Shown here: positions 12,186-31,462 of the stretch, piece after piece
Numbering within the stretch: position 1 is the first letter of the stretch
Layout: each line of letters starts with the position of its first letter
DNA from: Ferriphaselus amnicola
GTDB taxonomy: Bacteria > Pseudomonadota > Gammaproteobacteria > Burkholderiales > Gallionellaceae
Reading direction: 5' to 3'
DNA length: 64,000 nt
NCBI RefSeq assembly: GCF_000974685.2
Contig: NZ_AP018738.1
Span: 1,798,001 to 1,862,000, forward strand
Notes under the pieces: model-generated
Seen by the model: the letters and a program-made list of their open reading frames with translations, nothing else
Told to the model about the DNA's origin: nothing
Database searches by the model: none
Program-made: the position numbers and the translations under genes

Positions 12186-13892
12186 CTAAAACAGAGTCAC
12201 CTCTTCGACTTGGGCATCTCCCAATCTGAATCCCGTGACCACATGAATCGTCTCTCCCGCTAGCGCGGAAAAACTAGAAGCCGTATCCGCGATATGAGTA
12301 ACTTCCAAGTGAAATTCAGCAGACATCTGGGCGACCAGATTAATGTTGCTTTCCAAGTGTTGCGACATACGACTTTGCTCGACCAGTGCGGCAGAAATAT
12401 TTCCGACCTGCTGAGCAACGGCACGAAATGCCTGCTGCACCTCACGTATTGCATTATTAGCATGTTTCGCATTCAGAGAGCCACTCGTAGCATCGTTAGC
12501 CACTTGATTCATATTTTTGATAGCTTGCTCTACACCACCTCGAATTTCATTTGAAAACGTCTGAATGACCTGTGTCGCCGAGGCGGTACGCTCCGCCAAT
12601 TTACGGACCTCGTCAGCCACCACGGCAAAACCACGCCCTTGCTCCCCAGCTCTGGCCGCTTCAATGGCTGCATTCAGTGCTAATAAGTTGGTCTGATCGG
12701 CAATCTCACGGATTGCGCTCACCACCGCATTGATACTCTGAATCTTTTTACTGAGTTCAGAAATATCTTTCGACCCCTGCACTACCGACCTCGCGATGCC
12801 CTCCATCTCAGATACATTCCTCCCAATAATCTGAGCGCTGCGCTCGGTGGCCACTTCAGTGTTAGCTGCAATATCTCTAGCATCATTACTATTGGCCGAA
12901 ATATTCTGAATACAGAGATTCAAATCGGCAGTCGCTTGCTGCATGGTATTCACCGCAGCGTTCTGCTCACCGACAGCCCCCTTCATTTTGGTCGTCGAAC
13001 TTGATAGAGAAAGCGAGCTGTTGGTCAGATTCGATGCCGAAGCATGTAGGTCAACCAAGGTCTTGCGTAGGTTCTCGCTCATCATCAGCGCATCCGCCAG
13101 CAATCCAGTAGCACCCGCACCGCAAGCCAGACCCGCCGCAAGGTTCCCCGAAGCAACTTCTCGGACAATCTCGGCAACCTCCTTAGGGTCGCCACCGATC
13201 TGTCTTCTGACCGATGCGTTGATGGCTCTCGCCAAGATAGCCGTAATGAACAAAGTCAACAGCGTCCATGCGGCGATCCAAGCCAGCCGCAAGTAAAAGG
13301 TGTCGCTCTCCGCCTCATATTTCTGCTCGAATTTCATCTTACTGAAGTTACCAAAGCCATCACGCAGTTCGACCAGCTCACCAAGTAATTGCCTATCGAT
13401 CCCTAGCACTCGGGAGTCTGAGTCAGCATAGTTCTTGTGCGCATCAATCTGCTCAAGGTATTTTTTGCTGACCGAACGATGCTCATCCAACATGCTGTTA
13501 ACCATCATGACGAAACCATCCCACTCATCATGGTGACCAACGGCCAGCTGATTCATGCCCTCCAGCGTATTCGCCGTGTGCTGCTCGAAAGCTTGTTGCT
13601 GCGCAATAAATTCGCTGCGATATTTTACAAGTGATGCAACATCTGCACCGCGCAGCCAAACGTCCTTGGCCAGTTTGACCTCAAGCAGAAACGCAGTGTT
13701 CATGCCGTCTATTTCCAGCGCCACGTCCAGCGTTCTTTTGAGTCGATCCACCGACATCCGATCCTCCTGCAATGTGCTGTAGAGCGCCAACACGCCCGCG
13801 ACCATCATCGCCAAGAATAGCAATACCGACGACGCCTCCAGCAAACGGAGTTTGCCAGCAAGGGAAAACCGTTCGATCATCGAAAGTTTCAT
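12186..13892 (-). CDS. Methyl-accepting chemotaxis protein
   Basis: Membrane chemoreceptor feeding CheA. The ATG at 13892 has GGAGTG nine bases upstream; the longer in-frame GTG at 13901 overlaps that site. It has 568 residues: a first membrane helix (about 22-42), a periplasmic four-helix-type region (about 43-195), a second helix (about 197-215), a HAMP-like segment with IGGDP, and a long cytoplasmic signalling domain with the hairpin tip [20 protein letters not shown] followed by [17 protein letters not shown]. No che genes are nearby, so it is an orphan receptor. The ligand is not predictable. Its G+C content looks lower than that of the hemA side. Confidence 0.93.
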
Positions 13893-14142
13893 TGAGCACA
13901 CTCCAACAAATCTTCGCCCGCGACGATGTCGCGTGACACTGAAAAGCGGAGGAATCGAGAGTGAAGTGACGAGCTAGCCGAACAGCCGACTCGTGATGCG
14001 AATGAAGATATGCCTGACATTTACAGCGCCCCCGTAACTTGATTTCTGAAACCGTGCGACGGGGTTTGGGTCGCGCATGACCGTCAAAGTAGCAGGCATG
14101 AGGAAATTCTGTCAAGCATATTCAATGATTCAAATATGGGCA

Positions 14143-14748
14143 TTACGGCTTCGATTTCCTAAGATGAGGTGCAAGATCAACCTCTTGCCGCTGCTCGACT
14201 ACCTGCTCCGCCACATCGAGCATCCGCTTGCGGTTACTCCGGCAATAGGCTCGCAAAGCATCGAACGTCTCGTCACTGGTCGAGCCAAAGCGCTGCATCA
14301 ACAAACCGATTGCCATACTGATGTTGCGACTGGTGTGCAATGCCGTTTTAAGATTCAGTTCGGCCTGATGCAGCTGTTTGATCTCTGTGGCGCGTTGCAG
14401 TGCAGTACGGATGGTGGGCAACACCTGCGGCACATCAAGAGGCTTGACCAGATAACCGAGCGCACCGAGTTCGGCAGCTGTCGCCACAGTAGCGGAATCA
14501 TCGTAAGCCGAAAGGAACAGGAACGGCACCGCCAATGTGTTTTTAAGCCACTGGGCAAACTCGATGCCGGAAATGCCGGGTAGATGAATGTCCAGCAAGG
14601 CCAAATCCGGCTGCTGGGCAGAGCAAAGCTGCATCGCCATTTCACCCGAATCGGCAGCCAGAATTTGATAACCCGCATCACTCAAGCCTCGAGCCAGCAG
14701 ATGCAACACCAGCCTGTCATCCTCAACCACTAGAATCGTCGTTTCCAT
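14143..14748 (-). CDS. ANTAR-domain response regulator (AmiR/NasT/PdtaR type)
   Basis: 201 residues. The N-terminal receiver has acidic residues EDD near position 10 and the phosphoacceptor Asp in LALLDIHLPG. The C-terminal helical ANTAR domain (about 135-190, NISMAIGLLMQRF...AYCRS) belongs to a family that binds tandem hexaloop RNA hairpins and prevents termination. It lies 14 bp downstream of a HisKA_2 kinase gene on the same strand, the partner class expected for PdtaS/PdtaR-like pairs. Target transcripts are unknown; I found no clear tandem AxxGxx hexaloops in the window. Confidence 0.9.
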   Translation of the reverse strand: METTILVVEDDRLVLHLLARGLSDAGYQILAADSGEMAMQLCSAQQPDLALLDIHLPGISGIEFAQWLKNTLAVPFLFLSAYDDSATVATAAELGALGYLVKPLDVPQVLPTIRTALQRATEIKQLHQAELNLKTALHTSRNISMAIGLLMQRFGSTSDETFDALRAYCRSNRKRMLDVAEQVVEQRQEVDLAPHLRKSKP

Positions 14749-14762
14749 TCTGTGTTCCCCTG

Positions 14763-16547
14763 TTATTGGGTATCAAATTGCTTATGGATGACCACAGGCG
14801 GAGCAAGATCAAGCTCTGCCGTAAAAACACCCTCCGCTTCCCGCATAGTCAAAGTTGCAGAATTTCGTGGCAGTAACGACCGAACCAGACTCAATCCTTG
14901 CCCATCCTTGATCTCATCGGTGAGTCTCGCATCAAACAAATTGGATAGGGTGATGATGACGTGACTGCCCCTCTCCTCCAATCTCACCGCAACAGTACTT
15001 TGCTTGCTACGGTGTTTGCCCGCATTGGTGAACAACTCATTCAACACCAGCGCTATCGGCACCGCCTCATCTCGACTCAACATGAGCGAATGTGTCAAAT
15101 CATCGTGATACTCCACCGCTGTACCAGAGGCATCGATGATTAAGTTCATTAGCGGACTCAGCCCAACCTCTTCCGACATCTCTTGCGCTTGCAGTCCGTG
15201 AATGATGGCAATCGAGTAGATGCGACCGATGATGACATCCACGACTTCAGCCAGATTAGGATGCTCAGATACATGCTGGCGCAGTAGTCCCACCACACCC
15301 TGCAGGTTATTCTTGATCCGATGATGCACTTCGCGTATCAACACATCCCTTTGCTGCTTGATCTCAATCAAGCGCAACTCATTCCGTTTGACTCGATCGG
15401 TAATGTCGCGCGCAAAGACAACGATGGCATCATTGCGAGATGCCGAACGGTTGACACTGATCTCAAAGTCAATCAATTCGCCGTTTTTTCGGCGATGTCG
15501 CGTTTCAAAAAGATCATGCCCCACTTCGACGATTCGTTGTATGTGCTTGGCAACCTCTTGTGGAGACTCACTAGCCTCAATATCTTGGATGCGCATCTTC
15601 AGCATCTCTTCGCGTGTATAACCAACCATCCGACAATAGCTATCGTTAACTTCCAGTATTCGACCCGTCGTATCACAGAACCAGAAGCCTTCTGAGATGG
15701 TTTGAATGATGCCCTGATACTCCATCTCCCGCAGCCTACTCTGAGTAATGTCCTGAGTCGTTCCGAATCCACCGAGCAACTCCCCCGACTCACCGAACTC
15801 CAACAGTGCATTCTCCCGAACATACCTAACCGCGCCATTCACGATGATACGATGTTCGATGTCATAAGGCTCACCATGCAATGCCGCTTGCCACATCCGA
15901 TCAACATAATCCCGATCATCGGGGTGAACAATCGACAAGAAATTATCATAAGTCAAAGGGTTGCCAACCGGAATGCCAAATATCCTGTAATTTTCATCCG
16001 ACCAGTTCAACTGATTATGGCGCACATCCAGACGCCAGTTTCCAATTTTCCCCATACTCTGAGCACGATGCAGATCCGCCTGACTATCCCGAAGATATTC
16101 TCCTGCCCGCTCGAACTTCTTGACCGCAGTCTCCAGCTTCTCCTGATAGCGATGCATAGCCCCCACAACTAGACTCACGATCAACCCATCCACCAGAAAT
16201 ACCGTGTTCGACCACAAGGCCACTTCTACGGAGTGCAGCGAAATCGTGTAATAAGGCGGCACAAAAATGAATGTAGCAATGCAAATCCCAATGAACACGG
16301 CGAACAGACCGGCACGAAATCCAAAGATAACGGCGGACAGCGTGACCGCCGGAAAGAGTGTCAGGTATTGCAGCCCCGCATCGAGCGGCGCAACTGCCAG
16401 GCGCACCCAAAGTGCCACCCCCATCAGTACGCACACCATCAGATACTGGAAAACCCCCTCGAACTTCGGCTGACCCTCACCTAAGTAATCAAAGACTTGT
16501 GAAACACCATCTATGGTAAACATCCTTAGATTAGTAATTGACTTCAA
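14763..16547 (-). CDS. Membrane PAS-PAS sensor kinase, HisKA_2 family
   Basis: Sensor kinase for the adjacent ANTAR regulator. The N-terminus carries several hydrophobic helices (four or so before the PAS domains), resembling the DUF4118/KdpD-type membrane module (LMVCVLMGVALWVRL and following). Two PAS domains follow. The transmitter has the HisKA_2 box IREVHHRIKNNLQG and the N-box VLNELFTNAGKH. Start choice: TTG at 16547 has GGGAG eight bases upstream, giving 594 residues. The next ATG (16523) lacks a ribosome-binding site, and the frame opens at a TTG at 16586 without one. The gene is divergent from the c-di-GMP operon. Confidence 0.85.
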   Translation of the reverse strand: MKSITNLRMFTIDGVSQVFDYLGEGQPKFEGVFQYLMVCVLMGVALWVRLAVAPLDAGLQYLTLFPAVTLSAVIFGFRAGLFAVFIGICIATFIFVPPYYTISLHSVEVALWSNTVFLVDGLIVSLVVGAMHRYQEKLETAVKKFERAGEYLRDSQADLHRAQSMGKIGNWRLDVRHNQLNWSDENYRIFGIPVGNPLTYDNFLSIVHPDDRDYVDRMWQAALHGEPYDIEHRIIVNGAVRYVRENALLEFGESGELLGGFGTTQDITQSRLREMEYQGIIQTISEGFWFCDTTGRILEVNDSYCRMVGYTREEMLKMRIQDIEASESPQEVAKHIQRIVEVGHDLFETRHRRKNGELIDFEISVNRSASRNDAIVVFARDITDRVKRNELRLIEIKQQRDVLIREVHHRIKNNLQGVVGLLRQHVSEHPNLAEVVDVIIGRIYSIAIIHGLQAQEMSEEVGLSPLMNLIIDASGTAVEYHDDLTHSLMLSRDEAVPIALVLNELFTNAGKHRSKQSTVAVRLEERGSHVIITLSNLFDARLTDEIKDGQGLSLVRSLLPRNSATLTMREAEGVFTAELDLAPPVVIHKQFDTQ

Positions 16548-16622
16548 CTCAGATGCTCCCGTGATTAGATTGATCCTGCCCTCCAAGATTATGCCGCAAC
16601 GAAAGAGCTGATTTGCAGATTC

Positions 16623-16658
16623 TGATCCAAGTAAAGAACTTTGGCTTGACTTGGATCA
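16623..16658. promoter_or_regulatory. Operator-like dyad in the divergent intergenic region
   Basis: A perfect 10-bp inverted repeat, TGATCCAAGT (16623-16632) and ACTTGGATCA (16649-16658), with a 16-bp spacer. The right arm overlaps the -35 box of the plus-strand promoter at 16646. It lies between the kinase gene and the diguanylate cyclase operon. The geometry fits a dimeric DNA-binding protein; the regulator is unknown. A related half-site, ATCCAGTAAAG, precedes the second promoter near 25105. Confidence 0.55.
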
Positions 16659-16675
16659 CCGTTTCTTGCTAATTT
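16646..16675 (+). promoter_or_regulatory. Sigma70-like promoter of first signalling operon
   Basis: TTGACT (16646-16651), 18-bp spacer, TAATTT (16670-16675). The predicted transcript starts at or just before the repeated structured element at 16681. The element copy at 25154 has the same promoter-to-element spacing within 1 bp, which supports both calls. Confidence 0.65.
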
Positions 16676-16680
16676 CGCCC

Positions 16681-16738
16681 CGTACGCAACCCAACCCCTG
16701 TTGCTGATTCTTTCCTAAAGGGGGTTTTGTGTACGCAC
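16681..16738 (+). promoter_or_regulatory. Repeated structured leader element, copy 1
   Basis: A 58-bp element almost identical at both ends to the copy at 25154-25210 (5' block 24 of 25 bases, 3' block 20 of 20); only the central loop differs in length and sequence. The 5' arm CGTACGCAA can pair with TTGTGTACG (9 bp, one G-U). After a CCC bulge, AACCCCT pairs with GGGGGTT. An alternative hairpin GCAAC/GTTGC with a 9-base loop competes with it, or combines with it as a pseudoknot. The 3' arm holds AGGGGG and a GTG codon four bases later. It lies 200 bp upstream of the haem-motif diguanylate cyclase. Not recognised as a known riboswitch; no folding energy was calculated. Confidence 0.6.
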
Positions 16739-16935
16739 TGAGCAGAAATAATCAATCAAGCTATTCGCTATTCCGCACCTGCACTGAAAGTTGGCGCGCT
16801 GACTGCTATCCGTTCGCCTCACCACTTCACACTTTATCTCTAATCGTGGCGGCAGAGCCTCAGCGGAACAGGTCAGCTCAACTATTCCCAACCAATACCG
16901 AAGGTGCGTCTCAGCACATTACTCGACAGGGATAG
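16729..16935 (+). CDS. Possible leader reading frame in element copy 1
   Basis: A 68-codon frame starts at the GTG inside the repeated element (MYALSRNNQ...) and stops three bases before the ATG of the diguanylate cyclase gene. AGGGGG lies four bases upstream of the GTG but would be paired in the predicted hairpin. The peptide resembles nothing I know and shares only MYAL with the copy-2 frame. If translated, its role would be coupling rather than peptide function. A chance open frame is a serious alternative. Confidence 0.25.
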   Translation: MYALSRNNQSSYSLFRTCTESWRADCYPFASPLHTLSLIVAAEPQRNRSAQLFPTNTEGASQHITRQG

Positions 16936-16938
16936 GGC

Positions 16939-18810
16939 ATGACACTCAGAAGAAAACGCTACTGGTTCACCGTCAGCACATCATTGGTATTGATCGTGCT
17001 TTTCTCCGTTGTCACCATCCAGTCATTCAGCTACTTCAGTCAGGACACCATACGTGAACAGGCTCGAATGACAGCTGAGATGCTGCGCATCTCGCTGACC
17101 GAGCAGATGCGCACCGGTGTGATCTCGGAACGGGAGACGCTGTTCAAACGCTTGCGCACCATCCCCGGCTTGGTCGATGTCCGAGTCATGCGCGGCGAGC
17201 CGGTGATCCAGCAGTTCGGCCCCGGCATCGATGGCGAGAAGCCACGGCTGGATATGGAGAAGCGGGTGTTGGCCACTGGGCAATGGGAGGAGCAGTTCGT
17301 CCAGGAAAAAGGCAACACCATCTACCGCATCACCATTCCCTACATAGCCAGCAGCACCACCTCGCTGAACTGCTTGCAATGCCACAATGTGCCGGAAGGC
17401 AGCATCAATGGTGCGGTGACACTGGGATTCTCGCTTGACAACATGCAGCACACCGAGCTGCTCGCGATCTCTCCGATCATCCTGCTGCTGATCGTTTTCG
17501 GTCTGTGTCTGGGCTATTTCCTCAAGAAACTGTTCCAGCCCATGGTTGCCACGGTGGAGCAACTCAAATCAGTCGTCGAGAATGCCGAGACCGGCGACTT
17601 CAGTGGCCGGATCAGCGCCGCCAGCAAAGATGAGATCGGAGACATCGCCCTCCACACCAACACCCTGATGGCTGCGCTGGAGCAAAGCATAGGCAAGATC
17701 TCCAGCCGTATCCAGTCGCTGGGAGAGCACACCCGCCGCGAGGGTGACCGCAACAATCTGCTGGAACATACCGTGCGCATCGTCGATGAGATGGTCGGCG
17801 CGACACGCTTCAAACTGGCGGTGGAGAACGACTTGGATCTCGACGAGATCTACGCGCGCCTGCATCTGGTGCTGAAGCAGCATTTCGGACTCAAGCACTT
17901 CTCCTACTATCAGGTGGAGAACAACGGCAAGAATCTGAAACCCGTGTTCGTGGAAGGCCTAGCCCAACCCAGTGAGCTATGGTGCGATCCCGAGATCCTA
18001 GTCAACGCAGAAGTCTGCCGCAGCAAGCGCATCGCAGCCTGCGTCTCCAGCGTGGACGCTCCGCAGATATGCAACCGTTTTTGCGGCAATGCCAAAGGGA
18101 TGGGCGAATTGGTGCACATCTGTATTCCCGTCATGCTTTCCGGGCATGTCGGCGGAGTCTTACAGATTGTTCTGACCGAAGACGAACGTCGGCAACATGC
18201 AGACATCGAACAGACCGCACAGCTCTACCTCAATCAGGTCGCCCCCGTGATCGAAGCGCGTCATTTGATGCAATCGCTGAAAAACACGGCAATGCGCGAC
18301 CCGATGACCGGACTGTATAACCGTCGTTTCATCGAAGACTACATCGACAGTCTGACCGCCAGCATCCTGCGCCAGAAGAGCAATCTGGGGATATTGATGT
18401 GTGACGTGGATTTCTTCAAACAGGTGAATGACAACTACGGACACGATGTGGGCGATCAAATCATCAAAGGACTGGCCGAGATCATCAAGAAAGCGATACG
18501 CGCCTCTGATCTAGCCATCCGCTTCGGCGGCGAAGAATTCATGATCCTGCTGCCGGACACGGATGCCGAGGGCTGCATGTTGCTAGCCGAACGCATCCGA
18601 CTGGCGCTCAAGGAGAACATCTTCCAGACCCCGCAAGGGCCGCTCAAGAAAACGCTTTCTATCGGTTTCGCCGTCTTCCCGCAGGATGGTAAGGGTTTCT
18701 GGGAGTGTGTGAAGTATTCCGATATCGCCCTCTATCATGCCAAAGAGCATGGCCGTGATCAGAGCGTCATGTTCACGGCAGAGATGTGGACTGGGACGGA
18801 TCAGTATTGA
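16939..18810 (+). CDS. Haem-c-motif membrane diguanylate cyclase (HAMP-GAF-GGDEF)
   Basis: 623 residues. A membrane helix (about 10-30) leads to a periplasmic sensor domain ending with NCLQCHNVPEG; CLQCH (145-149) is a CxxCH c-type haem attachment motif on the side where cytochrome c is matured. A second helix (about 174-195), HAMP, and a GAF domain follow. The GAF domain carries five cysteines in about 45 residues (WCDPE, EVCRS, AACVS, QICNRFC). The GGDEF domain has FGGEEF and an RASD inhibitory site. It probably makes c-di-GMP in response to redox state or a haem ligand; the signal is inference. ATG at 16939 has AGGGATAGGG upstream. First gene of the plus-strand operon. Confidence 0.9.
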   Translation: MTLRRKRYWFTVSTSLVLIVLFSVVTIQSFSYFSQDTIREQARMTAEMLRISLTEQMRTGVISERETLFKRLRTIPGLVDVRVMRGEPVIQQFGPGIDGEKPRLDMEKRVLATGQWEEQFVQEKGNTIYRITIPYIASSTTSLNCLQCHNVPEGSINGAVTLGFSLDNMQHTELLAISPIILLLIVFGLCLGYFLKKLFQPMVATVEQLKSVVENAETGDFSGRISAASKDEIGDIALHTNTLMAALEQSIGKISSRIQSLGEHTRREGDRNNLLEHTVRIVDEMVGATRFKLAVENDLDLDEIYARLHLVLKQHFGLKHFSYYQVENNGKNLKPVFVEGLAQPSELWCDPEILVNAEVCRSKRIAACVSSVDAPQICNRFCGNAKGMGELVHICIPVMLSGHVGGVLQIVLTEDERRQHADIEQTAQLYLNQVAPVIEARHLMQSLKNTAMRDPMTGLYNRRFIEDYIDSLTASILRQKSNLGILMCDVDFFKQVNDNYGHDVGDQIIKGLAEIIKKAIRASDLAIRFGGEEFMILLPDTDAEGCMLLAERIRLALKENIFQTPQGPLKKTLSIGFAVFPQDGKGFWECVKYSDIALYHAKEHGRDQSVMFTAEMWTGTDQY

Positions 18811-18856
18811 AGTCCTCAAGGCAATAATTGTCATGGAGAATGGTGTGGAAGTTGCA

Positions 18857-19696
18857 ATGGAACGTACGATATTGCTGGTCGATGATGATGAAAACATCAC
18901 CTCCTCGCTGGTTAGGCTGTTGCGCCGCGATGGTTACAGCATCCTGCGCGCCAACAGCGGTCAGGAGGGTTTGGCCGTATTAGCGCAACACAAGGTAGGT
19001 GTGATCATTTCCGACCAGCGCATGCCGGGAATGACCGGGACGGAGTTTCTGACCAAAGTCCGCGAACGCTATCCCGATACCGTACGCGTCGTACTGAGCG
19101 GCTATACCGAATTGAATTCGGTCACAGACGCCATCAATCGTGGTGCTGTCTATAAGTTCCTCACCAAACCGTGGGAAGATGAACTGTTGCGCGCCAATGT
19201 TGATGAAGCGTTCCAGCGCCACGAAATGAAGATCGAGAATGCGCGATTGGCACGCGAGCTACAACAGGCCAACAATGCACTTAAACAGATCAATCTGGAG
19301 CTTGAGCAACGTGTAGAGCGCAAGGCACGCGAGATCGTGCATAACCTCGCAGCACTCCAAGTTTCGCAAGAGATGCTTGAAGTCATGCCCGTAGCCGCTC
19401 TCGGCATCGACAATACAGGCATGATCGTTGCCGCTAATCAGATGGCTCGCCTGCTCTTTGCTAAGAACATAGAGACCTCGTCATTGCTCGGTGAAATGGC
19501 CGCAACGATCATTCCAGAATCGTTATTAAGCTGGGCATCATCAAGGTTGCACCTGCGGGACGAGGAGGCCAGAACATTTGACATCGCGGGAAATGATGCC
19601 CGTTGCTGGTGTCGATCGATGGGTGAATTCTCACGCTCGAATGGCGTGCTGCTGGTCATTGATGCGGGCATCCAGCCCCCATCGAAAGAGAGATGA
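18857..19696 (+). CDS. Response regulator with REC and PAS-like domains
   Basis: Receiver domain with LLVDDDENI, phosphoacceptor Asp in ISDQRMPGMTG, and conserved VVLSGYTE and FLTKPWED; this is the receiver subtype also found in RpfG-like proteins. A coiled coil (about 120-165) connects to a PAS-like domain (MPVAALGIDNTGMIVAANQMARLLF). No DNA-binding or enzymatic output is visible, so it may act by protein contact, for example with the HDOD protein that follows. The start at 18857 has GGAAG six bases upstream; an ATG at 18833 is the alternative. The ATGA overlap with the next gene indicates coupling. Confidence 0.85.
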   Translation: MERTILLVDDDENITSSLVRLLRRDGYSILRANSGQEGLAVLAQHKVGVIISDQRMPGMTGTEFLTKVRERYPDTVRVVLSGYTELNSVTDAINRGAVYKFLTKPWEDELLRANVDEAFQRHEMKIENARLARELQQANNALKQINLELEQRVERKAREIVHNLAALQVSQEMLEVMPVAALGIDNTGMIVAANQMARLLFAKNIETSSLLGEMAATIIPESLLSWASSRLHLRDEEARTFDIAGNDARCWCRSMGEFSRSNGVLLVIDAGIQPPSKER

Positions 19697-20532
19697 TGTC
19701 CCCGACCATCGACAAACAGGAGTTGTTCTCCAAACTCCACCAACTCCCCTCTTTACCACTGATCGTGCAGGAGGTAATCGCCAGCTTCAATGATGCCGAT
19801 ATGGATACCACCTCGCTGACGAAGAAGATCGCTCAAGATCAGGGTTTGAGCGCTAAGGTGTTGCGGGTGGCAAACTCACCGTTCTATGGCTTGCCGCGTA
19901 AGGTCGGTTCGATACAGGAAGCCATTACGATATTAGGATTCGACTGCGTCCGTTCCCTCGTATTGTCGGCCAGTGTAGCCAAGACCTTTGCGGGTGCGCC
20001 CAACAGCACATTCGATCGCCTTGCCTATTGGCAACGATGCTTCCGTGTGGCGACCTACTCCAAAGCACTGGCAAGCTGCCTACGCGTAGATCAAAAGATG
20101 GCCTTCACGGCAGGCATGTTCTACGACATCGGATTACTGGTGCTGGATCTATGCATCCCGGAACAGTTCGCCGCGCTGTTACAACAGCAAGCGACCTCGA
20201 ATCTACCCTTGATCGAGATAGAGCAGGCGGGTCTCGGCTTCGGCCATGCCGAGATCGGTGCGGAGATCATTCGGCGCTGGAACTTCCCACTGGAGATCGA
20301 ACAGGTCACTCGGTACTGGCAACAGCCGGAGCTACAGACGACCTTCGTCCCCTTGGTTTGTGTAGTTCATGTGGCCGCATTATTGGAAAACGGAGTGAAC
20401 GGCGATGAGCTGGTGGCAAAACTGGGCGCCACATGGTGTGGCCGGATGCAGATCACGTGGGAGCGCATCGAGGCCTGCCTACCTCCGCCGGAACAACTGG
20501 ATGCCGCGTCTAGCCTAGCAAAATCGAGCTAA
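19693..20532 (+). CDS. HDOD-domain signalling protein
   Basis: 279 residues dominated by an HDOD domain (about 10-210), an HD-related fold lacking the metal-binding HD pair. Typical segments are LPSLPLIVQEV, DQGLSAKVLRVANSPFYGL and SIQEAITILGFDCVRSLVLS. HDOD proteins act as non-enzymatic partners of c-di-GMP and two-component proteins (GsmR and its relatives are examples). It begins within the stop of the REC-PAS gene and is followed after 13 bp by a kinase gene. Confidence 0.88.
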   Translation: MMSPTIDKQELFSKLHQLPSLPLIVQEVIASFNDADMDTTSLTKKIAQDQGLSAKVLRVANSPFYGLPRKVGSIQEAITILGFDCVRSLVLSASVAKTFAGAPNSTFDRLAYWQRCFRVATYSKALASCLRVDQKMAFTAGMFYDIGLLVLDLCIPEQFAALLQQQATSNLPLIEIEQAGLGFGHAEIGAEIIRRWNFPLEIEQVTRYWQQPELQTTFVPLVCVVHVAALLENGVNGDELVAKLGATWCGRMQITWERIEACLPPPEQLDAASSLAKSS

Positions 20533-20545
20533 GCAAGGGAGGGAT

Positions 20546-21970
20546 ATGTCTCTGGAACGATTGAAGCAACTCACTTGGATCTATGACCTGCATCGTTTGG
20601 GACAGGATGCCGTCGCCACAGAAGACACCTCTTCCGTTTATCAACGGCTGTTGCAACATATCGTCGGAGGATTTGAAGCTGAAAGCGGGTCCCTCGCTTT
20701 GCTGAATCACAAGAACAACCACCTGACCATCGTTGCGGGAATCGACCTTCCTAGCGGAGTGATCGGACGACAAATCCCCTTGGGCGAAGGCGTGCTGGGC
20801 TGGGTCGTCAAGGAGAACACCCCCCTCTTACTCAATGGTGACGCATCCAGTGATTCGCGCTTTCGGCGCAATCGCGAGAATCGAAGTCCCGCTGCAGCCA
20901 CCTCAGCGATGTGCTGGCCACTGAAGATCGATGGCAGCTCCATAGGTGGCATCTCCGTAAATCGTTCGATCAGCGCGACAGTCAGCATGAATCGAACTGG
21001 AGACAAACCGCCATTCACAGAAGCTGACCTCGATGCAGGCTCGACCCTGCTGGATATGGTCAGCTTGGCGCTATCCAACATTCAACTACATATCGAACAA
21101 AAGCGACGACTGGAAAGTCTGCACCGGCTTAACCTGCAACTAGCAGAAGCTCAAAGTCACCTGATGCAATCGGACAAGATGGCCTCGATCGGCCAGTTGG
21201 CGGCGGGTGTAGCACACGAGATCAACAACCCCATCGGCTATGTCTATTCCAATCTAGGCACGCTGGAAAAGTACGTGCAAGATACCTTTGCTCTGCTCGA
21301 CCTGTATGAACAGGCAGAGACCGCAATTTCTGACCCGACCCTACGGACGCAATTAACCGTAGCAAAAGATAAGCTTGACCTCGAATTCCTCAAAGAAGAT
21401 CTGCAATCACTGATGGCTGAGTCCAAAGATGGCATCACCCGCGTCAAGAAGATCGTGCAGAACCTGAAGGATTTCTCACACGTCGATACCAACGATGAGT
21501 GGCATTTCTCCAACCTCCATCAAGGACTGGACAGCACCCTGAACATTGTCAACAACGAGATCAAATACAAGGCTGAAGTAATCAAGGAATACGGCATCAT
21601 CCCCGAAGTGGAATGCCTGTCTTCGCAACTGAATCAGGTATTCATGAATCTGCTGGTGAATGCCGCCCATGCCATTGAAGCCCATGGCACCATCACCGTT
21701 CGCACCGGCCAACAGGAGGATAAAGTTTGGGTCGAAGTGGCCGATACTGGCAAGGGCATCAAACCCGAACTCTTACAGAAGATCTTTGATCCGTTCTTCA
21801 CCACCAAACCCATCGGCAAGGGCACCGGGCTGGGGCTATCGCTCTCCTACGGCATCCTGCAAAAACACCACGGACGGATCGAAGTACGCAGTGAGATCGG
21901 CAAAGGCACGACCTTCCGCGTCTCACTCCCGATCAAACAGCCACAGGCTGTGCTAGCAACAACAAAATGA
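20546..21970 (+). CDS. GAF sensor histidine kinase (paralogue 1)
   Basis: 474 residues, no membrane segment. The GAF domain spans about 15-180. A coiled coil then leads into a HisKA H-box ([12 protein letters not shown], His near residue 223) and an HATPase_c domain with [43 protein letters not shown]. From about residue 198 onward it is close to identical to the next gene's transmitter, including a nucleotide stretch with mostly third-position changes. It lies in the same operon and overlaps the next gene by 4 bp. Candidate partners are the REC proteins at 18857 and 23739. Confidence 0.93.
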
Positions 21971-23742
21971 TGAATGAACCGCAAGACTCCATGCAGGATC
22001 TGCGCATGTTCAAGCAAGCGCTGGATCAGCACGCCATCGTCAGCATCGCGGATGCAAGCGGAAGGATCACTTACGTCAACGACAAGTTCTGCCAGATCAG
22101 CCAATACGTGCGGGCGGAGCTACTCGGGCAGAATCACCGCCTGCTCAAATCCGGCGTACATAATGCGTCGTTCTTCGACGACATGTGGCTGACCATTGCC
22201 AGTGGACAGACTTGGCAAGGGGAAATCTGCAATCGCAACAAGAGCGGCGAGCTGTACTGGGTCGAGACCACCATTACGCCCAGCCTAGACGAGAACGGGC
22301 TGCCCTACCAATACGTTTCGGTACGCACCGAGATCACGCAGCTCAAGCAAATTGAAAGTGCGCTTGCCCAAAGCAAGGCGGAGCTGGAAATCCGCGTCAA
22401 ACAAAGAACCGCCGAGCTGGAGCAGACCAAACACACACTGGAAGCTGACGTGCTGGCGCGCAAGCAGATCATGGGCAAACTATTCTACTTCAAGAGTGTG
22501 CTCGATCACTCACAAGATGCCCTATTCATCTTCGATGCGGACACCTTGCGAATGATCTATCTAAACCACAGCGCCGAGACTTGGTTCGGTTTCAGCAAGA
22601 GCGAGTTGATGCAGATGCCTGCACCGCAAAGCGAGCAACTGATGCCCTTCCTCGCGAACAGCGAAATGGTCACCACTTTACGTGCCAACGGCAATGAGGA
22701 CATCACGCTGGATACGGAATACCAGCGCAAGGATGGCAGTCGATTTTCAGTCGAGCTAGCATTGAAACTGGTGACAGGAAACAACGGTAAAGCCGTATTG
22801 GTATCCATTGTACGTAACATCGAGTGGCGCAAAATCGCCTATCAGGAGCAACGCGAGAGTTATGCGGCAGTGCAAGTGCTGAACCGCGAGCTGGAAGAGG
22901 CCCAGAGCCATCTGATGCAATCGGAAAAGATGGCTTCGATTGGTCAGCTAGCCGCCGGCGTAGCACACGAGATCAACAACCCCATCGGCTACGTCTATTC
23001 CAACCTAGGCACATTGGAAAAATATGTGCTGGACACCTTTGCCCTGCTCGACCTGTATGAGCGAGCCGAAACAGCTATCAGCGACGGCGAGGTACGCGCC
23101 CAACTCAAGTTTGCCAAAGATGCGCTGGACATCACCTTTCTCAAAGAGGATCTGCACGCGCTGATGGAGGAATCCAAGGACGGCATCACCCGCGTCAAAA
23201 AGATCGTACAGAACCTGAAAGACTTCTCGCATGTCGATGCCACCGACGAGTGGGGCATTTCTAATCTGCATCAGGGGCTGGACAGCACCTTGAACATCGT
23301 CAACAACGAGATCAAATACAAAGCCGAGGTGGCCAAGGAATACGGCACCATCCCCGAGGTGGAGTGTTTGGCCTCGCAATTGAATCAGGTGTTCATGAAT
23401 CTACTGGTGAATGCGGCCCATGCCATCGAAGAGCATGGCACCATCACCGTTCGCACCGGCCAACAAGGCAATGAAGTTTGGGTGGAAGTCGCCGATACGG
23501 GCAAGGGTATCAAACCAGAGCATCTGAAGAAGATTTTTGATCCCTTTTTCACCACCAAGCCGATCGGCAAGGGCACGGGGTTGGGCTTATCACTGGCTTA
23601 CGGCATCCTGCAAAAGCATCACGGACGGATCGAGGTGCGCAGTGAAGTCGGCAAGGGTACGACCTTCCGGGTCTCACTGCCGAGCAGGCAGCCCCCAGAT
23701 GCAACAAGCGAAAATGGAACGACACATGAGGTGGTTAGATGA
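21967..23742 (+). CDS. PAS-PAS sensor histidine kinase (paralogue 2)
   Basis: 591 residues. The first PAS domain (about 12-125, [23 protein letters not shown], aerotaxis-like) is followed by a coiled coil, a second PAS domain (about 170-290) and a HisKA/HATPase_c transmitter (about 308-580) that duplicates that of the preceding gene. The H-box is [12 protein letters not shown], and the ATP lid is [18 protein letters not shown]. Same phosphotransfer core, different sensor: a typical product of tandem duplication and domain swapping. The ATGA overlap with the REC-HD-GYP gene downstream suggests that protein is its cognate regulator. Confidence 0.93.
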
Positions 23743-25052
23743 GCGCAAGTGAGATGCCAGAAATACCAGCAACCGTATTGTTTGTGGATGACGAGACGAA
23801 CATCCTGTCGTCCCTGCGGCGGCTATTTCGTCCGCTGGGCTATCGCATCTTCACGGCAGAGGGTGGCGCGCAAGGTCTGGAGATCATGGAACGCGAGACG
23901 GTCGATCTAGTGGTGTCCGACATGCGGATGCCGGAGATGAACGGCGCACAATTCCTTGAAAAGGTCCGCGAACGCTGGCCTGATACGGTGCGCATCCTGC
24001 TGACCGGCTACGCCGAGATCGGTGCGACCATCGATGCGATCAACAAGGGCCAGATCTACCGCTACGTCTCCAAACCTTGGGAAGATAACGACATCACGTT
24101 GATCGTCAGGCATGCCTTGCAGCAAAAAGTTCTGGAGCGTGAAAAGAAGCGACTTGAAGAGCTAACGAACAAACAGAATGAAGAGCTGAAAGATCTGAAC
24201 GCCAATCTGGAAGCTAAGGTCGTGGCACGCACCAACGAGCTGAACCAGACCATGCAGTCGCTCAATGCCGCCCATGAAAAACTGAAGAAGAGCTTCATTA
24301 CCTCGGTGCGCGTGTTCTCCAACCTGATCGAGATGCGCAACCCCAGCAAATCGGGACACTCGCGCCGGGTCGCCGAACTGGCGCGCACGCTGGCACAGAA
24401 CATGGGCATGAGCGCAGCGGAAGCACAGGACACGTTCATCGCCGGTTTGTTGCTCGACATTGGCAAGATCGGGCTACCGGATCGACTAATCGACCGCCCC
24501 TTCCATAGTCTGACCGCTGATGAGCGCGCCTGTGTCACCAAGTACCCAGCCAAGGGCGAGATGGCGCTGATGGCGCTAGAACAACTGCAAGGTGCGGCAA
24601 AACTCATTCGAAGTCACCGTGAACGCTTCGACGGCACTGGGTATCCAGATCGCTTGTCTGGCCTGTCCATTCCGCTCGGCGCACGCATTCTGGCAATGGC
24701 CGAGGATTACGACACAGCGCTGATGGGAGTCGGATTCACCAAACCGATGAAACCGTCGGAAGCGGCACTCCTGATCGAGGACGACAAAGATAAGCGCTAT
24801 GATCCCGCCGTAGTCAGTGCCTTCCAAGCTGAATTAGACAAGGCTCGTGCAACGACGAACACCATCCCCGAACAGGCTTTATCCTCCGCACAACTCAAGC
24901 CAGGAATGATACTTGCACGCGATTTGATCACTCGAAGTGGCGAGATGCTCCTGTCAAAAGAGTATGTTCTGACTGAGCAACTCATTGAGCAAATCAAGAG
25001 TTTTGAGCACATGGACGGACACTTGCTCACCGTTAACGTCCACCGGACTTAA
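23739..25052 (+). CDS. RpfG-like response regulator with degenerate HD-GYP domain
   Basis: 437 residues: receiver (LFVDDETNI, Asp in VVSDMRMPEMNG), a long coiled coil (about 135-190), then an HD-GYP domain. The GYP loop is intact (FDGTGYPDRLSG), but several metal ligands expected from the family are altered. The HD pair reads LLLDIGK instead of xxHDIGK, the following HP motif reads TKYP, and HHE reads SHRE. GHS and the later Asp (AEDYD) remain. Canonical HD-GYP proteins hydrolyse c-di-GMP; this one may be inactive or altered and may work as a regulated binding module. It ends the first operon. Confidence 0.88.
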   Translation: MSASEMPEIPATVLFVDDETNILSSLRRLFRPLGYRIFTAEGGAQGLEIMERETVDLVVSDMRMPEMNGAQFLEKVRERWPDTVRILLTGYAEIGATIDAINKGQIYRYVSKPWEDNDITLIVRHALQQKVLEREKKRLEELTNKQNEELKDLNANLEAKVVARTNELNQTMQSLNAAHEKLKKSFITSVRVFSNLIEMRNPSKSGHSRRVAELARTLAQNMGMSAAEAQDTFIAGLLLDIGKIGLPDRLIDRPFHSLTADERACVTKYPAKGEMALMALEQLQGAAKLIRSHRERFDGTGYPDRLSGLSIPLGARILAMAEDYDTALMGVGFTKPMKPSEAALLIEDDKDKRYDPAVVSAFQAELDKARATTNTIPEQALSSAQLKPGMILARDLITRSGEMLLSKEYVLTEQLIEQIKSFEHMDGHLLTVNVHRT

Positions 25053-25117
25053 CACGAAGTAACCTATTACCCATGACCCGTTCGACGACTGTTTCGCCTA
25101 CCTATCCAGTAAAGCTA

Positions 25118-25147
25118 TTGACGCCACCTCGGTATCTTTGATAACTT
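25118..25147 (+). promoter_or_regulatory. Sigma70-like promoter of second signalling operon
   Basis: TTGACG (25118-25123), 18-bp spacer, TAACTT (25142-25147). The spacer and the distance to the repeated element match the first promoter, within 1 bp. The half-site-like ATCCAGTAAAG lies just upstream. Confidence 0.6.
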
Positions 25148-25153
25148 CCACAC

Positions 25154-25210
25154 CGTACGCAACCCAACCCCCGTTGCTATTTTCCCAAGAGGGGGTTTTG
25201 TGTACGCACT
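25154..25210 (+). promoter_or_regulatory. Repeated structured leader element, copy 2
   Basis: Second copy of the element at 16681. The two outer blocks are conserved while the apical loop is two bases shorter and different. The one base change in the 5' block (T to C) falls in the AACCCC(T/C) segment opposite GGGGGTT and keeps pairing (G-U to G-C). The alternative GCAAC/GTTGC hairpin is also kept. It lies 115 bp upstream of the PilZ gene. A second, unrelated strong hairpin follows at 25243-25267. Confidence 0.6.
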
Positions 25211-25328
25211 TCGCTTCACGCCATCGAATTCCACGTTCACGCCACGCGCCCTAGTTAGGGGCGCGTGTACTTTGTCATGCTTAAGCAAGCTGCAAATGCT
25301 CGCCCTCATTCATCGGAGGTATCTATGA
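25200..25328 (+). CDS. Possible leader reading frame in element copy 2
   Basis: A 42-codon frame opens at the same GTG of the element (MYALRFTPS...) and its TGA overlaps the ATG of the PilZ gene as ATGA, a typical translational-coupling arrangement. The peptide is not similar to the copy-1 frame after MYAL. It reads through the hairpin at 25243-25267 and the PilZ ribosome-binding site. It may be chance; supporting evidence is only the parallel with copy 1. Confidence 0.25.
   Translation: MYALRFTPSNSTFTPRALVRGACTLSCLSKLQMLALIHRRYL
25243..25267 (+). promoter_or_regulatory. Strong hairpin in PilZ leader
   Basis: A 9-bp perfect stem CACGCGCCC/GGGCGCGTG with a 7-base loop TAGTTAG. It is not followed by a T-run (TACTTTGTC), so it is more likely a structural or weak attenuating hairpin than a full terminator. 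It lies 58 bp before the PilZ ATG. Confidence 0.5.
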
Positions 25329-25732
25329 CACTCAGTTTGGAACGCCGCCAACACCCAAGATTCCAAATCAATAATCGTACCGCTATCATGTTCGGGCAAG
25401 GCCGCATCCGCGACATTTATCACGGAGATACAAGCAACCTATCTTTGGGAGGTGCCAGCATCCTCTGCAATCTAAAGCTGCGGGAAGCGATGGAGGAGGT
25501 GGTCATTTTCCTGTTCGCCCCTACCCCGCAGATCCAGCACATCAAAACGCGCGCCAGAGTCTTGCACGCCAGCTCGTTTGCCGATAGCACCTCTCGACTG
25601 AGAGTGGCATTCACCGAATTCTGTGGTGATGGCATCGCCAGACTAACGACCCTGTTGGAGGCAAACCCACATTTGATTCTCACAGATATTGTGACAACGG
25701 AGCGATCACCATCGAAATCTGATGACGAATAG
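25325..25732 (+). CDS. PilZ-domain protein, predicted c-di-GMP receptor
   Basis: 135 residues forming a single PilZ domain. Both c-di-GMP binding motifs are present: RRQHPRF (RxxxR type) near residue 7 and SNLSLGGAS (the D/NxSxxG motif) near residue 39. The ATG at 25325 has GGAGG six bases upstream; an in-frame start 20 codons earlier has no ribosome-binding site. It is the first gene of the second operon and overlaps the following PAS-GGDEF gene by 11 bp. It is a natural reader for the c-di-GMP made by its neighbours. Confidence 0.9.
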   Translation: MTLSLERRQHPRFQINNRTAIMFGQGRIRDIYHGDTSNLSLGGASILCNLKLREAMEEVVIFLFAPTPQIQHIKTRARVLHASSFADSTSRLRVAFTEFCGDGIARLTTLLEANPHLILTDIVTTERSPSKSDDE

Positions 25733-27326
25733 CACGTATGCTTCTTTACCACCGGGATTCTTCGGCCAGCTCTTTGAGCATGCTGCCGATCCCGTCTTCG
25801 TTCTCGATATCGCAGGACATTTCATCGCCGTCAATCAAGCGGCGTGCGACCACACTGGCTATAGCCGCAATGAATTGCTGACGATGCGCTTGGAACACAT
25901 TGATGAGACCGCATCGCCACAACAGCTCACTCAGCGCCAGAAGGATGGTTGGACTACTAGTGCGATGCACTTACGCAAGGATGGCACTCGAATCCCTGTC
26001 GATATGCACATTAAGATGGTCGAGCATGAGGATAGATGGCTTACGCTGATTATCTGCCGGGATGTGACCGAGCGCAGCCTGAAAGAGATCGAATACCGCA
26101 ATATCATCCAGACCACTGCCGACGGCTTTTGGAGCTCGAGTGCAACAGATGCTCGCATACTTGATGTCAATGAAGCCTATTGTCAAATGGTCGGCTATAC
26201 GCGGGAAGAGCTGCTGACTATGCGCATTTTCGATCTGGAAGCTTCCGAATCGCCAGAAGAGACCGCAAGGCATATCAGCAGAATCATCGAATCTGGAAGC
26301 GACTTCTTTGAAACCCAGCATCGGCATAAAGATGGCCATCTGATCGAGATCGAAGCCAGAGTCAGTTATGCCAGCATCCGTGGCGGCATGTTCTACACAT
26401 TCGTGCGCGACATTTCCGTACGCAAACGCCATGAGGAGGAACTGAAGCTGGCCGCTTCCGTGTTTAATGCCAGTAGCGCCTCGATCGTGATTACTGACCG
26501 AGACAACAAAATCGTCAGCGTTAATCCCGCCTTCACGACAATAAGCGGCTATGAACCCGAAGAGGTGGTTGGTAAAAATCCAAATGTTTTAAGCTCGGGC
26601 AAGCAGTCCAAAGAGTTCTACCGCGATATGTGGGAAAGCCTAGCGCGCTACCACTATTGGCAAGGTGAGTTGTGGAATCGACGCAAGGATGGCCAGATCT
26701 ACGCCGAGCAGCTAACCATCAACATCATTTCTAACAAGGATGGCAGCGTCCACCGTCATGTGGCCATCTTTTCAGACATCACGGAAAAGAAGCAAGCGGA
26801 AGATCTATTGTGGCGGCAGGCCAACTACGACTCGGTGACTAACCTCCCTAATCGTAGGTTGTTTCTCGATCGCCTCACACAGGAAATAAAAAAGTGTCGC
26901 CGGGCCACGACATCACTGGCGCTGCTATTCATCGATCTAGATCGATTCAAAGAGGTCAACGATCGCCACGGCCACAATATCGGCGATCAATTATTGATCG
27001 AGTCGGCACGCCGACTCAACGCCTGTGTGCGCGGTACCGACACGGTGGCGCGACTTGGCGGGGATGAATTCACCATCATCCTCACCAATATCACCGAGGC
27101 GACCGGAGTCGAAACCGTAGCCAAAAACATCAACAACGCATTACAGGAAGCCTTCCATTTCAACGGACTCAATATCCAGATTTCAGGAAGTGTCGGCATT
27201 GCGCACTACCCTGCCGATGCCACCACCCCAGATGATCTAACAACCAAGGCTGACATTGCCATGTACGCCTCCAAACGCCATGGACGTAATCGAATTTGCT
27301 TTTACTCCGACGAACTAGAATGTTGA
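25722..27326 (+). CDS. PAS-PAS-PAS diguanylate cyclase
   Basis: 534 residues, no membrane segments. Three PAS domains (about 8-120, 125-240, 245-360) precede a GGDEF domain (about 370-530) with the consensus active site RLGGDEFTIIL and an RGTD inhibitory site five residues before it. The third PAS domain resembles those in the next gene (NPAFTTISGYEPEEV, NPNVLSSGKQ). It starts inside the end of the PilZ gene, and its own end overlaps the start of the MASE1 protein, so the three are translationally linked. Confidence 0.92.
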   Translation: MTNSTYASLPPGFFGQLFEHAADPVFVLDIAGHFIAVNQAACDHTGYSRNELLTMRLEHIDETASPQQLTQRQKDGWTTSAMHLRKDGTRIPVDMHIKMVEHEDRWLTLIICRDVTERSLKEIEYRNIIQTTADGFWSSSATDARILDVNEAYCQMVGYTREELLTMRIFDLEASESPEETARHISRIIESGSDFFETQHRHKDGHLIEIEARVSYASIRGGMFYTFVRDISVRKRHEEELKLAASVFNASSASIVITDRDNKIVSVNPAFTTISGYEPEEVVGKNPNVLSSGKQSKEFYRDMWESLARYHYWQGELWNRRKDGQIYAEQLTINIISNKDGSVHRHVAIFSDITEKKQAEDLLWRQANYDSVTNLPNRRLFLDRLTQEIKKCRRATTSLALLFIDLDRFKEVNDRHGHNIGDQLLIESARRLNACVRGTDTVARLGGDEFTIILTNITEATGVETVAKNINNALQEAFHFNGLNIQISGSVGIAHYPADATTPDDLTTKADIAMYASKRHGRNRICFYSDELEC

Positions 27327-30300: not shown

Positions 30301-31462
30301 ATCGGTACGCGAGGAGGATATGGTAGCCCGGTTGGGAGGCGATGAGTTTCTAGTGGTGCTCACCGAACTCAGCAGCGACAGGAGCGAGGCCGCGATTCAG
30401 GCTGAACAGGTCGCAGAAAAGATCCGTGCAGAACTGTGTAGCCCCTATCACTTCGGCGACTTCGAGTACCACAGCAGCTCCAGCATCGGCATCATCCTGT
30501 TCCTCGGCCATTCGGACAGCCATGAAGAGCTACTCGCGCATGTGGATTCCGCCATGTATCAAGCAAAATCGAACGGGCGCAATACCACCTGCTTCTTTGA
30601 CTCATCCATGCAGGACGCTCTGGAAAAACGTAGCCAACTGGACAATGCCCTGCGCGCCGCCCTCGTTCGTGACGAACTTATCCTCTACTACCAGCTGCAA
30701 GTCGATCACTCTGGCCAACCGATAGGCGCAGAAGCGCTGCTACGCTGGGCACATCCCAAGTTGGGGATGGTCTCGCCGGCACAATTCATCCCCGTCGCGG
30801 AAGAAACTGGGATGATCCTGCCCATTGGCCGCTGGGTGATCGAAACCGCCTGCGCGCAATTGGCTCGCTGGCAGCTTGATCCACGTTTATCCCACCTGAG
30901 CATCGCCGTCAATGTTAGCGCCCGACAGTTCCGGGAACTGGGTTTCGTCAGCCAGGTTCGCGAGGCCATCGCCACCAGCGGCATCGACCCGGCAGTTCTG
31001 AAGCTGGAGTTGACTGAAAGTCTGGTGCTACACAATGTCGAGCACAGTATAGAAAAGATGCACGAACTGAGAAGTCTGGGCATACGCTTCTCCATGGACG
31101 ACTTCGGTACCGGCTACTCGTCCCTGTCCTACCTGAGCCGTCTGCCCATCGATCAACTCAAGATCGACCAGTCATTCGTTCGCAACATCACCACCGATCA
31201 GCACGACGCTGCCATCGTCCAGACCATCATCTCCATGGCGCAAGGCTTAGGGCTGGAAGTGATTGCGGAAGGCGTGGAAACTGAGGCTCAGCGCGAGTTC
31301 CTCGAACTACGCGGCTGCGACAACTATCAAGGCTATCTGTATGCCAGACCTATGCCTATCCATGACGTGGAGGCCTTGCTTGAGAGCCAAGTTATAGCTC
31401 TAGTTCACCCCCAACGACTCGCACAGCCGTCCAACCAGCGATCTCAGCTCTGCCACCTCTGA
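27320..31462 (+). CDS. MASE1-multiPAS-GGDEF-EAL c-di-GMP enzyme
   Basis: A very large (1380-residue) membrane protein. The N-terminal MASE1 sensor has about eight helices (residues 10-300, e.g. [17 protein letters not shown]). About five PAS domains follow to roughly residue 930, then GGDEF and EAL. Both catalytic modules look intact. The cyclase site is [11 protein letters not shown] with a REED inhibitory site. The phosphodiesterase shows [39 protein letters not shown] and IAEGVETE. It could make or break c-di-GMP depending on signal. The start at 27320 overlaps the previous stop; ATG at 27332 is an alternative. Its last 63 bp overlap the convergent yceH gene. Confidence 0.92.

Follow-up and report, generated by a model that had tools for sequence, protein, structure and literature searches.

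Targets of ANTAR-domain regulators are described as dual stem-loops with hexanucleotide loops carrying an A at the first and a G at the fourth position (A1 and G4; PMC3369931, PMC8934654, PMC8164766), and a single hexaloop has been argued to be the minimal ANTAR site (PMC8934654). In EutV, Tyr164 is described as stacking on G4, which is also contacted by Arg142, Lys149 and Glu160 (PMC8934654). Transcription attenuation is given as a known mode of ANTAR regulators such as EutV, NasR and AmiR (PMC3369931); for ANTAR RNAs of Actinobacteria, repression at the level of translation is reported or proposed (PMC8164766), and in mycobacteria cyclic diguanosine monophosphate (c-di-GMP) is reported as an activator of PdtaS, the kinase of an ANTAR system (PMC11537054). 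Here we describe a leader RNA element present in three copies around an ANTAR gene of Ferriphaselus amnicola (Gallionellaceae), in a stretch of 64,000 nucleotides (contig NZ_AP018738.1, positions 1,798,001 to 1,862,000, forward strand), called the window, in whose coordinates positions are given. The element is a genuine cis-regulatory RNA not represented in Rfam, and probably the 5'-terminal switch of a local ANTAR two-component regulon that acts through translation of leader open reading frames (ORFs). The RNA family, its promoter pattern, both folds, the complementarity between loop and start region, the leader ORFs and the linkage to ANTAR genes were established by computation.

The element resembles the leaders of eut, nasF and amiE, the targets of EutV, NasR and AmiR, in that a leader hairpin, the presumed ANTAR site, is mutually exclusive with an inhibitory hairpin; here this leader hairpin is also near the ANTAR gene. 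The known targets have A1/G4 hexaloops, whereas here the loop is C-rich and 9 nucleotides (nt) long; they have two hairpins, while each of the 14 Gallionellaceae leaders contains one, hairpin A; and the alternative fold covers the start of a leader ORF rather than clearly forming a terminator. In the actinobacterial RNAs, dual hexaloops are reported or proposed to keep the start hidden (PMC8164766); for the present element the prediction is the opposite, a start freed by the bound hairpin. The PdtaS-PdtaR system is likewise a kinase and REC-ANTAR pair connected with c-di-GMP, although there c-di-GMP is the reported kinase input (PMC11537054), while here c-di-GMP genes are the predicted output. 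With the c-di-GMP-I and c-di-GMP-II riboswitches the element shares its place in leaders of c-di-GMP-related genes, but the Rfam models of these do not match it. The element is not a canonical ANTAR-target RNA, as the hexaloop and tandem features were tested for and are absent from these copies; it nevertheless likely works like an ANTAR switch. Among the literature matches listed, with most subscription journals outside the search, neither an ANTAR target with a 9-nt loop nor ANTAR control of c-di-GMP operons was found, and the literature on orphan riboswitches with GGDEF genes (among the matches listed) and on c-di-GMP-III gave no lead.

Copies, promoters and alternative folds

Copies 1 and 2 of the element (Table 1) lie exactly where a first-pass annotation of the window had placed them, and the identities it gave, 24 of 25 bases in the 5' block and 20 of 20 in the 3' block, are borne out. 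The 5' block, CGTACGCAACCCAACCCC, has two matches in the window when up to three mismatches are allowed (shuffled sequences have a mean of 0.03, and none of 100 reaches two), and the 3' block likewise has two (mean 0.09, with one shuffle in 100 reaching two). A gapped exact pattern matches copies 1 and 2 only in the whole 2.72-Mb genome. The element is real, beyond chance. Two covariance models were used, R1, built from seven sequences, and the broader R2, built from 14 sequences with copy 3 included. On its own genome, R2 recovers three strong copies, all inside 11.2 kb, and a weak fourth match (C1:1536707, E 0.11). Copy 3 (14002-14083, minus strand, E=1.3e-15) is diverged and was first detected through the loop pattern; its hairpin sits 69-87 nt 3' of the ANTAR response-regulator gene. 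The annotation had assigned one copy to each c-di-GMP operon, which is right for copies 1 and 2 but incomplete, as copy 3 precedes a chemotaxis receptor gene on the minus strand. It had also set the element apart from the GEMM and c-di-GMP-II classes, and Rfam agrees: the whole window gives no match at gathering score, and at E<=10 the surroundings of copies 1 and 2 give two snoRNA matches only, both outside the element.

All 14 Gallionellaceae copies follow a promoter of the form TTG[AC][CT]-N17/18-TANNTT with an extended TGn, which ends 8-12 nt before the stem of hairpin A. This pattern, written after the copies had been inspected, has three matches on both strands of the window, the promoters of the three copies, and thereby upholds the promoters assigned earlier to copies 1 and 2. 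A generic sigma-70 scan lists none of the three, so the promoter call rests on conservation. Given the short distance to the stem, the transcript should start a few bases before hairpin A, with predicted starts near 16680-16684 (+), 25152-25156 (+) and 14077-14081 (-).

Copies 1 and 2 fold into the predicted hairpin of 9 plus 7 base pairs with a CCC bulge, called hairpin B, with energies of -21.6 and -23.4 kcal/mol (z -3.1 and -3.7). The emphasis that had been put on this long hairpin was misplaced: in the 11 copies found with R1, 84% of its cells are paired and its covariation is 0.108, against 0.107 in shuffles, and it was rejected as a conserved structure. The competing GCAAC/GTTGC hairpin, also noticed at first, is the one with covariation support. 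This hairpin A, a 5-bp stem with a 9-nt loop, is the best-supported structure of the element. In the same 11 copies all of its cells are paired and there is one double change, a number attained by 42 of 500 shuffles. In 31 sequences from ANTAR loci, 99.4% of cells are paired, G-U pairs occur in three cells against one mismatch, four of the five pairs show double changes, and the covariation is 0.451 (0.153 when shuffled, at most 0.12 when the stem is slid); this covariation is partly circular, as 20 of the 31 hairpins were picked by eye or by requiring a good stem, the other 11 being those found with R1.

In predicted folding, hairpin B is more stable than hairpin A in 13 of the 14 copies. When hairpin A is forced in the predicted ensembles of these copies, the mean openness of the start codon rises from 0.16 to 0.62. 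In copy 3, the G-run before the start is hidden in the free fold (0.07) and opens to 0.58.

The 3' block consists of a G-run followed by GUG or AUG, which opens a leader ORF of 18-80 codons. In 10 of the 12 copies where this can be assessed, the leader ORF stops within -14 to +8 nt of the start of the next gene, seven of them with the classical -4 overlap; a third-frame control gives 1 of 11 (Fisher p 0.0006), both counts taking the nearest of several possible starts. The copy of genome G033, without a long downstream ORF, and that of G048, where the leader is fused in frame to a PAS-GGDEF-EAL gene, are omitted from this count. The third-frame control supersedes an earlier one (9 of 14 against 3 of 9) that used a 150-residue limit and left out two real genes. 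In G002 an AUGA overlap is present, yet the PAS-GGDEF frame is not opened by it; within the leader ORF of this genome (L047, about 9985-10020), CTACGAG units are repeated in a short tandem array.

Complementarity between the loop of hairpin A and the start region has a combined p of 2e-5 in the 14 copies, 11 of which had been found via a model of hairpin B, and of 3e-5 in 17 other sequences. The best-pairing segment lies at most 13 nt from an AUG or GUG that begins a frame of 14 codons or more in all 31 sequences, against 19.9 expected at random positions; the 13-nt limit was fixed before the run, on sequences already seen. In four relatives (L066-L069) the loop is not C-rich, reading CCAGAACAC or a variant, and the start region reads AUGUUCUG or GUGUUCC; since the letters of loop and start both differ, the pairing is kept with other letters.

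Association with ANTAR genes

The first-pass annotation had proposed a search for further copies, and these were found: R1 detects 11 copies, in 9 of the 158 same-family genomes searched, and R2 gives 14 strong copies in the same nine and weak matches in three more (G103, G114 and G167, E 0.005-0.009). An orthologue of the ANTAR protein at E<=2.2e-50 is encoded in 8 of the 158 genomes, all eight among the nine with the element (hypergeometric p 1e-12, with no correction for relatedness). The ninth genome, G048, with a completeness of 72%, carries the element on a 5.5-kb contig. At the seven other loci with both, the kinase-ANTAR gene pair adjoins a copy of the element, either in divergent orientation or on the same strand and upstream of it. 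In a pattern scan of named genomes 13 stretches were found, of which six (in five genomes) are true copies and seven look like chance. This recurrence, together with related hairpins that carry compensatory changes at ANTAR genes of other families, supports the earlier suggestion of a shared cis-regulatory RNA. Of the ligand or protein to which the RNA had been suggested to respond, the evidence points to a protein, and the ANTAR two-component regulator next door is the likely partner. Covariation, which the annotation had proposed to look for in the stems, is seen in hairpin A and not in the long hairpin.

ANTAR proteins at 40-46% identity are encoded in seven further genomes and at a second site in the genome of F. 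amnicola itself (L071, 6701-7222; C1:1410700-1411221; 43% identical). At the loci of the seven genomes R1 has no match at E<=1 with filters off, and it has none at the second site either. The strict loop pattern, derived from the Gallionellaceae loops, is absent from all eight loci, including 13.5 kb around the second ANTAR gene of F. amnicola, which is free of strict-pattern 9-nt-loop hairpins; the hairpins reported at the loci of the seven genomes were seen by eye and then with a relaxed pattern.

The strict pattern was also scanned on 35 ANTAR loci of a sample of the order, from other families. It gives six matches, all 90-125 nt 3' of the ANTAR gene and on its strand (p 5e-6), in a scan that was not blind, as the loci had been seen beforehand, and in which four of the six matches are from one genus; the other 714 kb of strand sequence and the reversed sequence give none. 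The relaxed pattern, at class level, has eight of nine matches near an ANTAR gene, with a p of 6e-9 that is optimistic because the pattern was chosen after looking at those loci. In family f37, the ANTAR gene is present in six of nine genomes and the relaxed-pattern hairpin at all six loci, which were already counted and add no new genomes. At L120, the relaxed-pattern hairpin is on the opposite strand and has a 4-bp stem. Near ANTAR genes of other genera (L067-L069, and L144 at about 2400-2450), 9-nt-loop hairpins occur in tandem, 28-31 nt apart, resembling the two-hairpin layout of the known ANTAR targets.

The REC-ANTAR protein of the window scores 88.4 bits for Pfam Response_reg and 48.9 bits for ANTAR (PF03861, cut-off 27.3), and EutV (6wsh) aligns to it along residues 5-184, nearly its whole length (E=2.8e-27). 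Among the contact residues of EutV, R168, R175 and R177 are kept, and Y164 and K143 have similar replacements (F and R, respectively). R142, K147, K149, E160, M172 and N173 are changed, with S at 142, I at 149, S at 160 and R at 172. When 44 family- and order-level ANTAR sequences are aligned (class-level sequences excluded), none has a lysine at position 149 and most have Arg at 172. These changes do not predict the presence of a hairpin: the change at 149 occurs in rows with and without one, and that at 172 in nearly all.

Candidate mechanism and alternatives

The kinase and ANTAR genes lie between copies 1 and 3, on the minus strand, so that one two-component system has three like leaders around it. 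In the mechanism that we propose, the kinase would phosphorylate the ANTAR response regulator, and transcripts from the three flanking promoters would begin just before hairpin A. This hairpin would form first as the RNA leaves the polymerase and, unaided, would lose to hairpin B. In the unbound RNA, the loop and the 5' arm would pair with the G-run, which resembles a Shine-Dalgarno sequence, and in copies 1 and 2 also with the leader start codon, and translation would be low. A phosphorylated ANTAR dimer would hold hairpin A, keeping the loop off and freeing the leader start; ribosomes entering the leader ORF would pass into the overlapping or nearly touching gene. The GGDEF-to-HD-GYP operon, the PilZ/GGDEF/EAL operon and the chemotaxis receptor would then rise together.

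In this mechanism we infer the binding of hairpin A by the ANTAR protein, its dependence on phosphorylation, the direction of the switch (on) and its level (mainly translation). Several observations weigh against it. No A1/G4 hexaloop on a Watson-Crick stem of at least four pairs is present between -20 and +200 in any of the 14 leaders, and three of the four residues with which EutV contacts G4 are changed in the window protein. Hairpin B shows no covariation beyond that of shuffles, and the covariation of hairpin A draws largely on selected hairpins, the 11 R1-found copies alone yielding the one double change. Forcing hairpin A frees the G-run only partly (mean 0.13 to 0.30 in the 14 copies), the start codon of copy 3 is already open in the free fold (0.70), and in G033 hairpins A and B have about equal predicted energies. 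Coupling fails in G002 (+82) and G022b (+10), two of the third-frame controls fall narrowly outside the limit (+10 and +11), and G033 lacks a long next ORF. Taken singly, the loop pairing reaches p<=0.05 in only 6 of 14 copies and 5 of 17 others. Outside the family, the hairpin is found at a minority of ANTAR loci: the strict pattern at only 6 of 35 at order level, from the non-blind scan with its single-genus majority, the relaxed pattern at 9 of 35 (within about 420 nt of the ANTAR gene) and at 7 of 22 at class level, and in fresh loci of family f43 at 1 of 13 (p 0.07).

The main rival keeps the same RNA and the same ANTAR partner and takes transcription attenuation as the output, the CCCCC/GGGGG hairpin followed by UUUUGUGU being an intrinsic terminator and hairpin A the antiterminator. 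It is unlikely, although ANTAR regulators are described as acting in this way (PMC3369931), GGGGGUUUUGUGU is present in copies 1 and 2, and a scan lists a terminator-like site at 25182-25195. It may apply to the copies with UUUU after the G-run. The U-run is missing in G012a, G012b, G048, G002, copy 3 and G178b, whereas each of the 14 has a start codon, AUG or GUG, behind the G-run, as sought with group-specific patterns. The coupling of leader ORFs to the next gene in 10 of 12 copies also speaks against it, and the terminator scan shows no excess (11, against 11.4 in shuffles). A DNA operator, in which a transcription factor would recognise the dyad GCAAC-N9-GTTGC just past +1, with the RNA folds as by-products, is improbable. 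Symmetric changes in both arms fit a DNA palindrome as well and the site directly follows the -10 box, but the 9-nt spacer is conserved and asymmetric in the 31 sequences aligned on the transcript strand, G-U pairs outnumber mismatches, the loop is complementary to start regions, and the output domain of the neighbouring gene product is RNA-binding, not DNA-binding.

A riboswitch for c-di-GMP or another nucleotide governing c-di-GMP genes would suit the two of three leaders whose operons contain GGDEF, HD-GYP-type, EAL or PilZ genes. It is very improbable, as the Rfam riboswitch models are unmatched both around copies 1 and 2 and in the window, the most conserved part is a hairpin of 19 nt, the element tracks one ANTAR gene, and elsewhere the next gene may encode a pilin, a chemotaxis receptor or a kinase. 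The patchy occurrence, in 9 of 158 genomes, could be that of a mobile or structural repeat with no regulatory role, an explanation that we hardly credit: only the three strong copies and the one weak match are present in the genome, each copy lies behind a promoter and before a gene of the same orientation, and in relatives the copies are near ANTAR genes. The random placement that the first-pass annotation had named as a counter-sign is thus not seen.

Returning to the ANTAR-controlled translational switch, a wider reading is possible, though we hold it only tentatively and somewhat short of probable. A proteobacterial ANTAR subfamily, in the aligned sequences without lysine at EutV position 149 and mostly with Arg at 172, may have left the A1/G4 hexaloop and may read hairpins with a 9-nt loop, the loop sequence doubling as the anti-start strand; binding would free the coupled leader ORFs of genes for c-di-GMP turnover, chemotaxis or pili, activating their translation. 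If true, this would be an RNA-level two-component switch on translation initiation, linking a sensor kinase directly, through translation, to the supply of c-di-GMP enzymes, and an instance in nature of recognition having changed in protein and RNA alike. The A1/G4 rule and the loop size by which ANTAR targets are searched for would then be too restrictive, and models based on that rule may have overlooked a class of two-component outputs in Proteobacteria. The three matched natural leaders of the window offer test material for the translational route.

Genes around the copies

Table 1. Features of the element and its surroundings in window coordinates
Feature	Position	Strand	Basis
Copy 1 of the element	16681..16738	+	block matches, folding, R1
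Copy 2 of the element	25154..25210	+	block matches, folding, R1
Copy 1 hairpin A, GCAAC-CCAACCCCT-GUUGC, proposed ANTAR-bound form	16686..16704	+	pattern, covariation
Copy 2 hairpin A, GCAAC-CCAACCCCC-GUUGC	25159..25177	+	pattern, covariation
Copy 3 hairpin A, GCGAC-CCAAACCCC-GUCGC, stem double change A-U to G-C	14056..14074	-	loop pattern; R2
Copy 1 Shine-Dalgarno-like G-run (16720-16724) and GUG start (16729-16731), both paired in hairpin B	16720..16731	+	
Promoter of copy 1, TTGACT-N18-TAATTT, extended TG	16646..16675	+	conservation
Promoter of copy 2, TTGACG-N18-TAACTT, extended TG	25118..25147	+	conservation
Promoter of copy 3, TTGACA-N18-TACTTT, extended TG	14086..14115	-	conservation
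Leader ORF of copy 1, 68 codons, stop 3 nt before next start	16729..16935	+	
Leader ORF of copy 2, 42 codons, stop overlaps PilZ gene start (AUGA)	25200..25328	+	
Leader ORF of copy 3, 43 codons, stop overlaps start of chemotaxis protein gene (AUGA)	13889..14020	-	
REC-ANTAR response regulator, proposed trans-acting RNA-binding protein	14143..14748	-	Pfam; EutV 6wsh alignment
DUF4118-PAS-HisKA_2 histidine kinase, probable cognate sensor	14763..16586	-	Pfam; similar kinase next to relatives' ANTAR gene
GGDEF protein (motif GGEEF), first gene of operon 1	16939..18810	+	Pfam
PilZ gene, first of operon 2	25325..25732	+	Pfam
PAS-GGDEF, operon 2	25722-27326	+	Pfam
MASE1-PAS-GGDEF-EAL, operon 2	27296-31462	+	Pfam
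Methyl-accepting chemotaxis protein behind copy 3	12186..13892	-	Pfam MCPsignal 130 bits

The GGDEF gene of operon 1 is followed by genes for REC, HDOD, GAF-HATPase, PAS-HATPase and REC-HD_5 (HD-GYP type) proteins, up to position 25052. Of the two operons, described earlier as dominated by GGDEF, HD-GYP or PilZ genes, operon 2 has three genes, all clearly c-di-GMP-related, and operon 1 has six, two of which clearly are. In the HD-GYP-type protein (23739-25052) the GYP motif is present, and the sequence reads LLLDIGK. The HD motif has the form HDIGK, so this HD site may be degenerate. Between 20546 and 23742, two consecutive genes contain closely similar kinase halves, which suggests a tandem duplication.

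Further observations concern the sequence 3' of ANTAR genes in other families. In one genus (L105, L108, L110, L111, L112 and L121), the hairpin precedes a gene for a metallo-beta-lactamase-like protein, followed by one for a protein of 750-790 amino acids; the motif HxDPDIVGG...H...GDIG of the former may be that of an oxygen-binding di-iron domain. Two loci of family f43 without a 9-nt hairpin (L104 and L107) share CCGGGGCCCAAGAAACYGTCCCGCTTGA 3' of the ANTAR gene, possibly another target hairpin, and at L123 the corresponding region contains repeated inverted GC-rich units, CCCCGCGCAGGCGGGGACCC.

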